Below, one piece after another: positions 32,628 through 40,235 of a stretch of DNA of 57,100 nucleotides (its first letter is position 1; every line of letters begins with the position of its first letter). The stretch spans positions 751,257-808,356 of the forward strand of contig NZ_KQ948763.1 of NCBI RefSeq assembly GCF_001514205.1, read 5' to 3'. Below the pieces are notes generated by a model. It was given only the letters and a program-made list of their open reading frames with translations. It was not told the DNA's origin and made no database searches. This stretch comes from Streptomyces griseoruber (GTDB lineage: Bacteria > Actinomycetota > Actinomycetes > Streptomycetales > Streptomycetaceae). Position numbers and translations under genes: made by a program.

Positions 32628-33386
32628 CTAGGCGAGTTCCAGCACCCGCTGCTCCGCCGGACGTGCCGTGCGGATCCGGGAGGTGCGGTACAGCCACAGC
32701 ACGTCGCGGCCGAAGGACCACAGCAGGGTGCCGAGGGCCAGCAGCATGACGGCGACGTTGCCGGCGTGGGGGAGGAGGTCGGCGCCCGCGACCAGCAGGC
32801 AGATGCCCTGGAGGGCGGCGACGGTCTTGCGGGCCATGCTCGGCGGGAGCGGGGCGTTGAGCCAGGGCGCGACGCGGGCGGCGGCGACGAAGACGTAGCG
32901 CATGGCGCCGACCAGCAGCACCCACGGACCGAGCGCCATGGAGACGTACACGCTCAGGACGAGGATGAGGAACGCGTCGACCTCCATGTCGAAGCGCGCG
33001 CCCAGCGCGGTGGAGGTGCCGGTGCGGCGGGCGACCTTGCCGTCGACGCCGTCGAGGATCAGGGCCACGGCGGTGAGGCCGACCAGCAGGGTCACCGGCG
33101 GGGTGGACTCGAAGGAGTCGGCGACCAGGGCGGTCACCCCGCCGACGAGGGTGGCGCGGCCCAGGGTGACCCGGTTGGCGGGGCCGAAGGAGCGCAGCCG
33201 CGAGCGGTGCAGTGCCCGGGAGAGGACGGCCCAGGTGGCGACGGCGAAGACGAGGCCGGTGACCCAGCCCGCCGGCCCCATGCCGATCGCCGAGCCGAGC
33301 AGGGCCAGCAACAGGATCTGAACGCCCGCTCCCACAGCGGTCTCCTGCTGGACCAGCCTTGCGTCGTAAGTGTTGTTCAGGGCCAC
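32628..33386 (-). CDS. CDP-alcohol phosphatidyltransferase family protein
   Basis: A 252-residue membrane enzyme with the complete family signature D112-G-V-D115-G-K-V-A-R120 ... G129-x3-D133-x3-D137 (DG-x2-G-x2-AR-x8-G-x3-D-x3-D type). Five or six hydrophobic helices surround it. Such enzymes join a CDP-activated lipid or alcohol to a hydroxyl acceptor. GTG 33386 follows CGGAGGAAT. It diverges from the zinc-type dehydrogenase gene of the GTP-derived cluster, 108 bp away, and may be its lipid-anchoring step. Confidence 0.87.
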
Positions 33387-33494
33387 CGCACATTCCTCCG
33401 GCCAGGTGACAGAGATGATCAGTGCCGCGTACTGTGCGCGACCTGTGCACACCTCGGTACGTGCACCAGTCGCAGATCGTTCAGGAGGATGCCG

Positions 33495-34487
33495 ATGAAC
33501 CGCAGCGGACGCGCGTTCTGGATCGACGCCCCGGGCCGGGGCGGGATACGGGACGTCGCCCTGCCGGAGCCGGCCGAGGGCGAGGTCGTCGTCCGTGCGC
33601 TGTATTCCGGGGTCAGCCGCGGCACGGAGACCCTCGTCTTCCGCGGACAGGTGCCCGAGAGCCAGCACGCGGTCATGCGGGCGCCGTTCCAGGAGGGCGA
33701 CTTCCCGGCGCCCGTGAAGTACGGCTACCTCAACGTCGGCGTGGTGGAGGAGGGGCCCGCGCGGCTCGTCGGGCGGACCGTGTTCTGTCTGTATCCGCAT
33801 CAGACGCGGTACGTCGTCCCCGCGACGGCCGTCACCGTCGTACCGGACTCCGTGCCCGCGGGGCGGGCCGTGCTGGCCGGCACCGTCGAGACCGCCGTCA
33901 ACGCGCTGTGGGACGCGAAGCCCCTGGTCGGGGACCGGATCGCGGTGGTCGGCGGCGGCATGGTCGGCTGCTCGGTCGCCGCGCTGCTGGCCAGCTTCCC
34001 GGGCGTGCGCGTCCAGTTGGTGGACGCCGACCCGGCGCGCGCGAAGACCGCCGAGGCGCTCGGCGTCGGCTTCGCGCTGCCCGAGGACGCGCTCGGCGGC
34101 TGCGACCTGGTCGTGCACGCCAGCGCCACCGAACAGGGCCTGACCCGGTCACTGGAGCTGCTCCGCGCCGAGGGCACCGTCCTCGAACTGAGCTGGTACG
34201 GCGACCGCAGGGTGGCGCTGCCGCTCGGCGAGGCCTTCCACTCGCGCCGGCTGGTCATCCGCAGCAGCCAGGTCGGCACCGTCTCCCCGGCCCGCGCCGA
34301 CCGCAGCTACGCCGACCGGCTCGCGCTCGCCCTCGACCTGCTGGCCGATCCGGCACTCGACGCGCTCGTCACGGGGGAAAGCGCGTTCGAGGAGTTGCCG
34401 GAGGTCATGCCGGGGCTGGCCTCGGGCGAGATCCCCGCACTCTGTCACCGTGTCAGGTACGCGTCGGAGTCCGGCAAGAGCGCCTGA
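33495..34487 (+). CDS. MDR-type dehydrogenase without catalytic zinc ligands (BchC-like)
   Basis: A 330-residue medium-chain dehydrogenase. The nucleotide-binding [15 protein letters not shown]ossmann motif is intact. The N-terminal catalytic segment reads [14 protein letters not shown] where zinc alcohol dehydrogenases have SGICGTD, and no GHE motif is visible. It therefore resembles BchC-type reductases and probably lacks catalytic zinc. Two ATGs compete; 33495 is spaced correctly from AGGAGG (33483-33488). It is the first gene of the rightward cluster. Confidence 0.8.
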
Positions 34488-34603
34488 CCTGAGAAAAGAG
34501 TGAGATCGCTCTGAACAAGGGGAAGCCAAGAGCCGTACTACACGGCATCCCCCGGCGGCCAACGGCCGGGGGACCAGACGCGCCGCACCTGGAGGGTCGT
34601 CCG

Positions 34604-38890: not shown

Positions 38891-39537
38891 GCGGACATTC
38901 CCAGTGTGAGCAGATGGCGACGGTCGTCCGCGGTGAAATCGGCGGACTCGAAACCGGGCCGGACGAGTTCCGGATGGGCGTGCAGCAGGATCGAGGTCTC
39001 GATCTCCCCGGCGTGCATGTCGGTGAGGAGCGAGGTCACCACCCCGGACCGTGCCCGCGCCGCCTCCCAGTCCTCCGGGGCCGGGAAGAGCGCCATCCGC
39101 TCACCGCGGGCGGAGGACTCCTGGACCGCGTTGCCCAGGACGTAGTTCCCGCCGTGTCCGTTGACCAGCACCAGGGCCTCGACGCCCGAACGGCGCAGCG
39201 ACGCCGCGATGTCCCGTACCACCGCGTGAAGGGTCACGGAGGAGATGCTGACGGTCCCCGGCCAGGCCGCGTGCTCGTGCGAGCAGGCGATGGTCACCGG
39301 CGGAAGGAGGTGCACCGGGTACGCCTCGGCGATCTCCCGGGCGACGGCGCAGGCGACCAGGGTGTCGGTGGCGAGCGGCAGGTACGGACCGTGCTGTTCG
39401 AAGCTGCCGACCGGCAGGACCGCCACCTGCGTCGCGACGCCCGCACCCCGGGAGCGGACGTCCTCGGTGGTGTCCACGGGCACCAGGCCGTACGCCGCCC
39501 CCGCCGTCGCCGCCGTCCTTATCTCCGAACCACTCAT
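38710..39537 (-). CDS. Creatininase-family amidohydrolase, candidate FAPy deformylase
   Basis: A 275-residue creatininase-family hydrolase with its metal site: Glu/His in GSFEQHGPYLPLATDT, VNGHGGN, and Glu in DMHAGEIETSIL. The same family includes archaeal ArfB, which deformylates the FAPy nucleotide made by archaeal GTP cyclohydrolase III. It diverges from the FAPy-type ribA gene with only 38 bp between start codons, so sequential action is plausible. The alternative is a mycofactocin-type or true amidase. Its 3' end overlaps the flippase gene. Confidence 0.8.
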   Translation of the reverse strand: MSGSEIRTAATAGAAYGLVPVDTTEDVRSRGAGVATQVAVLPVGSFEQHGPYLPLATDTLVACAVAREIAEAYPVHLLPPVTIACSHEHAAWPGTVSISSVTLHAVVRDIAASLRRSGVEALVLVNGHGGNYVLGNAVQESSARGERMALFPAPEDWEAARARSGVVTSLLTDMHAGEIETSILLHAHPELVRPGFESADFTADDRRHLLTLGMSAYTDSGVIGRPSLGSAEKGKELLASLADSFGAYFSLLTSEKPSGPENAADSGSTGDTGPL

Positions 39538-39575
39538 CTTTTCCCGGCCTTTCGTCTCCGCTTAGGAATCAGATC

Positions 39576-40235
39576 ATGACAGAGAAAATGGGCGTACTCG
39601 GCAAGCAGACCGCGCAGCGCACCGGTGTGGAACGCGTGGTGAATGCCCCCTTGCCCACCGTGTACGGGAAATTCCAGGCGGTGGGCTACCTCGACCACGA
39701 CCGCGGTGACGAACAAGTCGCCCTGGTGTACGGCGAGATCGGCAGCGAGGACGTGCTGACCCGGCTGCACTCGGAGTGCCTGACCGGCGACGCGTTCGGC
39801 TCCCAGCACTGTGAGTGCGGCGACCAGCTGGAGTCGGCGCTGCGGGCCGTCGTCGCCGCGGGCAGCGGCATCGTCGTCTATCTGCGCGGCCACGAGGGCC
39901 GCGGCATCGGTCTGCTCGGCAAGCTGCGCGCGATGGCCCTCCAGGCGGAGGGGCTGGACACCGTCGAGGCGAACGTGGCGCTCGGCTTCCCGGTGGACGC
40001 CCGCGACTACAAGGTGGCCGCCGACATCCTGCGCGACCTCGGCGTACGGTCCGTGCGGCTGATGTCGAACAACCCGCGCAAGCGCGAGGCGCTCGTCGAC
40101 AACGGCATCCAGGTCGCCGAGGAGGTGCCGCTGCTGATAGAGCCGTGCGAGAACAACATCACCTACCTGCGCACCAAGCGGGAGCGCATGGACCACCGGC
40201 TGCCGCACCTGGACGCGGTCGCGCACTGGTCCTGA
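39576..40235 (+). CDS. ribA: GTP cyclohydrolase II variant, Met120 type (SCO6655-like)
   Basis: A 219-residue RibA-fold enzyme. Zinc ligands Cys68, Cys79 and Cys81 are present (SECLTGDAFGSQHCEC), as are HEGRGIGLLGK and LMSNNPRK. The residue equal to the catalytic Tyr of E. coli RibA (RAYALQ) is Met120 (RAMALQ). In S. coelicolor SCO6655 that Met is known to retain the formyl group, giving FAPy instead of the riboflavin precursor. It is unlinked to other rib genes, so this is a specialised paralogue. Confidence 0.88.
   Translation: MTEKMGVLGKQTAQRTGVERVVNAPLPTVYGKFQAVGYLDHDRGDEQVALVYGEIGSEDVLTRLHSECLTGDAFGSQHCECGDQLESALRAVVAAGSGIVVYLRGHEGRGIGLLGKLRAMALQAEGLDTVEANVALGFPVDARDYKVAADILRDLGVRSVRLMSNNPRKREALVDNGIQVAEEVPLLIEPCENNITYLRTKRERMDHRLPHLDAVAHWS

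Follow-up and report, generated by a model that had tools for sequence, protein, structure and literature searches.

A conserved gene block around a PTPS-IV T-fold protein in Streptomyces griseoruber: a candidate route to a GTP-derived, glycosylated lipid headgroup

The window analyzed here, a stretch of 57,100 nucleotides from the 10.2 Mb genome of Streptomyces griseoruber (contig NZ_KQ948763.1), contains a block of eight genes (positions 32628–40235) that includes a T-fold protein of the PTPS-IV subfamily. We propose that this block, together with a RibD_C reductase and a transferase of the LtaS/EptA fold, produces a glycosylated headgroup derived from GTP, which would then be attached to a phospholipid, likely flipped across the membrane and likely passed to a surface polymer, a reading to which we give slightly less than an even chance. 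The genes themselves, their conserved order, the association between one residue of GTP cyclohydrolase II (GCH2) and a creatininase-family protein, the co-occurrence of the transferase and two fold matches are direct observations. A first-pass annotation of the window had listed the eight genes, all of which are present in the sequence; its interpretation of the block as a whole is partly supported.

Within the block, an MDR-type dehydrogenase (33495–34487, + strand; ADH_zinc_N at 20.8 bits, below the cut-off) is followed by the T-fold protein (34604–35002, +; PF01242, 80 bits), an orthologue of SCO6650 (PDB: 3D7J), and by a GT4 glycosyltransferase (34999–36207, +; PF00534, 101 bits). A pattern scan with the T-fold alignment brought up at least 578 relatives in 594 stretches. 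The 80 best were retained; these come from Rubrobacter, Chloroflexota, Halomonas/Vreelandella, Thioalkalivibrio, Rhodospirillales, Acidobacteriota, Planctomycetota, Streptomyces, Micromonospora and others, with many metagenome assemblies among them. These 80 and the loci of further genomes gave 131 T-fold loci that were mapped by tblastn, a non-random sample in that every locus was found via the T-fold, and they span Actinomycetota, Chloroflexota, Pseudomonadota, Acidobacteriota and Planctomycetota. In 124 of the 131 loci the gene immediately upstream of the T-fold is the dehydrogenase, and in 127 the one immediately downstream is GT4; 121 loci have both neighbors in place, and four of the other 10 sit on contigs or pieces shorter than 9 kb. 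A sample of the class gave a T-fold match in 48 of 345 genomes (weakest E value 5.6e-7), and within the genus of the window in 19 of 33, the window's own included. The other 18 carry the identical eight genes in the same order and on the same strands, with RibD_C inserted in four. Conservation of gene order, which the first-pass annotation had set as a check on its idea, thus extends to 19 of 19 same-genus genomes with the T-fold, the window's among them, and shows that the block is a conserved pathway and not a local oddity.

The genome of the window holds seven GCH2 homologues, five of them alike in the motif YLRQEGRGIGL. The paralogue in the block (39576–40235, +; PF00925, 219 bits) has Met at residue 120, as in SCO6655-type GCH2 and exactly as the first-pass annotation had claimed, and is predicted to stop at the formamidopyrimidine (FAPy) stage. 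Tyr at this position enables GCH2 to complete deformylation, and SCO6655, with its Met, is an enzyme that halts at FAPy. Next to this gene lies the creatininase-family hydrolase (38710–39537, −; PF02633, 214 bits), the predicted FAPy deformylase. We compared 45 Actinomycetota loci, 40 of them with a scored GCH2. The residue is other than Tyr in 28 (Met 21, His 3, Leu 3, Gln 1), all of which have the creatininase (28/28), and it is Tyr in 12, none of which does (0/12). The five loci that lack a scored GCH2 (L202, L204, L206, L207 and L239) are all without creatininase, and the same is true of the Actinomycetota loci with no GCH2 at all, most of the Rubrobacter-type and Arthrobacter among them, which were left out of the 45. 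Two rows had been removed before counting, a spurious second regular-expression match in L043 and an antisense match in L136; the former was still included when the GCH2 tree was built and appears there as a long branch. The predicted passage from GTP through FAPy to a deformylated product gains support from this split.

Several observations weigh against so simple a pairing. The GCH2 proteins without Tyr that were given to the tree, from 20 of the 28 loci plus the window, fall into a single clade (support 95/80) beside a GCH2 domain of the window's own genome (L001), and the 28-to-0 association may for this reason stem from a single event, kept while the residue drifted. Outside Actinomycetota and Chloroflexota the creatininase is found in 16 of 22 Tyr-type blocks, for example those of the Halomonas-type, where a deformylase should be unneeded, so that it is presumably not solely a FAPy deformylase everywhere. 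Nor do the creatininases clearly form one orthologous family: in a tree with several long branches and open forks, 19 of 20 block creatininases from outside Actinomycetota and Chloroflexota make up a separate branch (98/99), which may or may not be sister to that of Streptomyces. The window creatininase scores 36.3 bits against the NCBIfam model of ArfB (cut-off 180), and its best NCBIfam match, MftE, stays below the cut-off as well (136.4 bits against 172). The enzyme could thus be another hydrolase of the pathway, an MftE-like peptidase or a ring-opening enzyme, and the MftE and ArfB scores and the 16 Tyr-type blocks speak for this; the 28-to-0 split within Actinomycetota and the separate branch of the other block creatininases speak against it, and we consider it unlikely, though far from negligible. 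The pairing of creatininase and Tyr-lacking GCH2 that the first-pass annotation had envisaged holds up in Actinomycetota but not as a general account of the family. As a rule that creatininase occurs only with Tyr-lacking GCH2, it was rejected: it is true of Actinomycetota and of six loci labeled Chloroflexota or Thermomicrobiales (creatininase in 0/6), and fails elsewhere.

The succession of a FAPy-forming cyclohydrolase, a creatininase-fold deformylase and a RibD_C-fold reductase that we predict resembles the archaeal ArfA–ArfB–ArfC start of riboflavin and F420 synthesis. Unlike in the archaeal series, the first enzyme here is a Tyr-lacking GCH2 and not GCH III, the creatininase falls below the ArfB cut-off and the downstream genes are different.

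RibD_C and the LtaS/EptA-fold transferase are two partners that the route of the first-pass annotation overlooked. RibD_C adjoins the T-fold unit in one Rubrobacter-type and two other actinobacterial blocks by Pfam, and in many more by tblastn; among Tyr-type Actinomycetota blocks it was found in all 12 scored. Within the window's genus it lies inside the block in four of the T-fold genomes, and the remaining 15 of 15 have a RibD_C–deaminase fusion elsewhere; these counts, like those for the transferase below, cover 33 same-genus genomes and are uncorrected for relatedness. In the window's own genome RibD_C is fused to a deaminase-like domain at a separate locus, beside a Tyr-type GCH2. An actinobacterial family (f84) whose blocks lack RibD_C has it at other loci in 11 of 11 genomes searched (44–53% identity). 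Against an exclusive tie, two of the 14 same-genus genomes without the T-fold have a strong RibD_C match and three more a diverged copy; the fusion may therefore have a second role in some other pathway. From this distribution the RibD_C reductase appears to belong to the route, locally or from another locus. One further arrangement was seen at L076:7081–9578: there the order of the domains in the RibD_C–deaminase fusion is reversed, and its neighbors are a MarR-like gene and a Tyr-type GCH2 (labeled by eye). This group could represent a separate small pathway.

The T-fold protein carries the FGPAQ signature of PTPS-IV (COG0720), with FGPA invariant across 11 aligned sequences. Its residues were scored over 87 loci (later-found loci excluded), with one to three gapped rows per position and one locus, L091, read in the wrong frame. 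The catalytic Cys of PTPS is replaced by Ala in 85/85 scored T-folds, and in the Asp–His dyad the His has become Tyr, Phe or Leu in 85/85, with the Asp retained in 23. Of the zinc-binding His residues the first two are kept and the third is Ala in 67 of 84 and His in 17. The T-fold therefore lacks the set expected of PTPS or QueD (catalytic Cys, dyad and three zinc His). The Glu that anchors 2-amino-4-oxo rings is retained in 85 of 86. With the catalytic residues of PTPS lost and the anchoring Glu kept, the T-fold is no PTPS, but it probably still has a binding site for a guanine-, pterin- or diaminopyrimidine-type ring. Among the matches listed, the closest named relatives are Streptomyces proteins and the only solved one is 3D7J (SCO6650), deposited as an uncharacterised protein.

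The PTPS-IV subfamily with its FGPAQ signature has been described by AGeNNT (2017), which also places PF00925 and PF01872 near PTPS-IV genes (PMC5445326). Both features recur here: PF00925 lies in the window's block, and PF01872-type genes are found in many other blocks, four same-genus ones included, and in the window's genome only at another locus. The dehydrogenase, GT4, creatininase, CDP-alcohol phosphotransferase, flippase and transferase links, the association of Tyr with creatininase and the idea of a lipid are absent from the passages concerned in the PTPS-IV publications (PMC5445326, PMC5041015). In the open-license literature, searched by titles and displayed text and with subscription papers mostly outside its scope, no description of such a pathway or product was found. 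The claim that this is an undescribed cluster needs qualifying, as the subfamily and part of its neighborhood were already in print; within the literature searched it holds for the pathway and its product.

The MDR label of the dehydrogenase comes from a homologue in the Wenzhouxiangella block L159, which matches MDR dehydrogenases. The first-pass label "BchC-like" is weak, given that this homologue, scored in place of the window protein, reaches 47.7 bits where the bchC model requires 291. We infer the roles of the T-fold, the dehydrogenase and GT4, as well as the identity of the product.

Two block genes point toward lipids. The CDP-alcohol phosphotransferase (32628–33386, −; PF01066, 52 bits) has the motif D..DG..AR..G...D...D, which all 10 homologues that were aligned share without change; as to its acceptor, a PDB profile search gave superfamily matches only. 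The UPF0104/LPG_synthase_TM protein (37301–38890, +; 114 bits) has the fold of the MprF flippase domain, and differs from MprF in that Pfam found LPG_synthase_TM only in the window frame, with no aminoacyl-transferase domain, the second domain of whole MprF. From about 38414 the 3′ part of its gene consists of tandem repeats (38415–38609; period 15/45 and others) encoding an Ala/Thr-rich tail of ~158 residues, and the protein as called has 529 residues compared with 388 in its Streptomyces bauhiniae homologue.

These lipid genes could be a lineage-specific addition, for export or anchoring only, to a soluble pterin or pyrimidine glycoside that serves as cofactor, pigment or signal. The blocks without them tell against a necessary lipid step: the phosphotransferase is missing from 63 of the 131 loci, the loci of Rubrobacter and Chloroflexota blocks are devoid of lipid genes, and FolB occurs in 20 of the 131 loci (the Rubrobacter-type and several Chloroflexota), none of which has the phosphotransferase (0/20). 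The FolB blocks combine RibD_C, dehydrogenase, T-fold and GT4 with FolB and mostly a methyltransferase. It follows that the route can run without lipid genes and that the small molecule may predate its lipid edition, which favors the soluble glycoside. The retained pterin-anchoring Glu also fits it, as does a weak match of the L159 GT4 to UDP-glucose:tetrahydrobiopterin glucosyltransferase (27.6 bits, a score exceeded by 48 other chains). The route to pterin glycosides in cyanobacteria and Chlorobium shares with the block a PTPS-family protein, a reductase and a group-1 glycosyltransferase; unlike the block, it begins at GCH I, its PTPS is zinc-dependent and catalytic, and it is not known to include lipid genes. 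On the other side stand the phosphotransferase in 68 of the 131 loci, UPF0104 in 64 and both in 58, and the distribution of the transferase described next, and we judge the soluble glycoside unlikely. The lipid idea of the first-pass annotation draws strength from the MprF fold and the transferase, and is limited by the Rubrobacter and Chloroflexota blocks.

The LtaS/EptA-fold transferase is present in 19/19 same-genus genomes with the block and in 0/14 without it, and in other genomes it adjoins the CDP-alcohol phosphotransferase. It combines hydrophobic stretches with a sulfatase fold (PF00884 at 28.3 bits against a cut-off of 25 in L152), has the metal and catalytic residues E223/S271/H384/D459/H460, and finds its best fold matches in the lipoteichoic acid synthases LtaP and LtaS and the phosphoglycerol transferase GacH. 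By sequence, a one-sequence query of the PDB gave no relevant match and a profile query a sub-threshold match to LtaP (E 0.23), which made the fold comparison necessary; NCBIfam models of named headgroup transferases gave 0 families for the three members scanned. Two features detract from its assignment to the route: it lies away from the block in 16 of the 19 genomes, and by alignment it has Ser at the presumed nucleophile position, where LtaS, GacH and EptA have Thr. Compared with these transferases and with MprF, the predicted headgroup would be new.

The fold matches to LtaP, LtaS and GacH could also mean that phosphotransferase, flippase and transferase make an ordinary phosphoglycerol- or phosphoinositol-type polymer, of which the GTP-derived unit would be a decoration or acceptor and not the headgroup; MdoG-/MdoH-type glucan genes near two blocks (L100 and L159), which cluster with the neighbors of others, agree with this. 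The phosphotransferase, however, lies less than 700 bp from the dehydrogenase gene in 54 of the 68 loci that have it, and from the dehydrogenase gene or the transferase in 60. In the window's genome, where the transferase is unlinked (L216), the products of the surrounding genes, judged by eye, showed no obvious acceptor pathway; the neighbors in L216 recur in most of the 12 transferase loci mapped and differ in L219, L220 and L226. We find the ordinary polymer quite unlikely.

That the block feeds F420 or riboflavin synthesis is highly improbable: an unpublished remark does tie PTPS-IV to F420 synthesis (PMC5041015) and GCH2 and RibD_C are riboflavin-type enzymes, but GT4, flippase and transferase fit nowhere in those routes, and CofH, above its cut-off in 7/7 Actinomycetota genomes searched (including two that lack the T-fold), reached it in 0/11 block-bearing genomes of other phyla, for which reason F420 was rejected as the product. 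An alternative folate route or bypass was likewise set aside, GCH I being present in 13 of 13 genomes tested, nine of them Rubrobacter-type.

The route we favor, drawn step by step from family chemistry and comparison, would begin with the Met120 GCH2 opening GTP and halting at FAPy, from which the creatininase would strip the formyl group to give 2,5-diamino-6-ribosylamino-4-pyrimidinone 5′-phosphate. A RibD_C reductase, for which the window's genome has a candidate at another locus, would convert the ribosyl into a ribityl chain, and the PTPS-IV T-fold and the dehydrogenase would then rework the ring. GT4 would add a sugar and the methyltransferase a methyl group; the CDP-alcohol phosphotransferase would couple the product to a lipid, the MprF-fold protein would flip this lipid, and the LtaS/EptA-fold transferase would hand the phospho-headgroup to an outer acceptor. 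This would be the simplest account that uses every conserved part. A wider claim, possible but on balance doubtful, is that a hitherto unknown class of phospholipids exists in several bacterial phyla, with a ring-opened, glycosylated GTP derivative (ribityl-pyrimidine or pteridine) as headgroup, and that an LtaS/EptA-type enzyme draws on this lipid to decorate the cell surface with the headgroup.

The methyltransferase of the block is SAM-dependent (36204–37301, +; PF13649 at 26.8 bits, just below the cut-off of 27). The genes from T-fold through GT4 and methyltransferase to UPF0104 overlap at their ends by 1–4 nt in the style of a coupled operon, the first pair by 4 nt and the second by ATGA. 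The "one coupled block" of the first-pass annotation is confined to these four genes: the CDP-alcohol phosphotransferase gene is divergent from the rest, the creatininase gene runs on the opposite strand and shares 181 nt with the 3′ end of UPF0104, and the GCH2 gene diverges from the creatininase gene across a gap of 38 bp. A scan of the block for promoters and terminators, using a sigma-70 consensus that fits this organism poorly, found none.

Directly downstream (40356–43748) the window encodes a DAO-type oxidoreductase, an alanine dehydrogenase/PNT N-domain protein and a saccharopine dehydrogenase-like protein; the same three genes adjoin the block in L039, L040 and L041, and they look like a separate amino-acid cluster. 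At 25869–26261 (−) a Pfam match named "NucS shadow ORF" (213 bits) marks an antisense frame that is probably no gene. Across the other loci, the neighbor scan covered 94 of 145 neighbors out of 237, and the 25 most frequent of 102 families were viewed. Blocks of the Rhodospirillales/Acetobacteraceae-type (L101, L105, L112, L117, L126, L145, L146) have, ~1.8–4 kb past the T-fold and after GT4 and the methyltransferase, a four-carbon acid-sugar kinase-like gene (SBD_N/NBD_C) and a class II aldolase; by clustering, with Pfam on L101, the former occurs in 15 loci and the latter in 11. In loci of the Halomonas type and some others from proteobacteria, the block has MdoG/MdoH-type periplasmic-glucan genes and an FkbM methyltransferase nearby, the MdoG/MdoH types being annotated in L100 and L159 and assigned by clustering in L121, L143 and L147. 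A look in that scan for light-related or other recurring genes yielded YceI (5), FkbM methyltransferase (5), CMAS (3) and a sigma factor (2), numbers too small to be of use.

The proposed pathway offers a testable role for several orphan families together, namely PTPS-IV, the FAPy-forming GCH2 of SCO6655 type, the creatininase, the UPF0104 protein and the LtaS-fold transferase. If it is true, nucleotide chemistry of the riboflavin/F420 type would supply the cell envelope.

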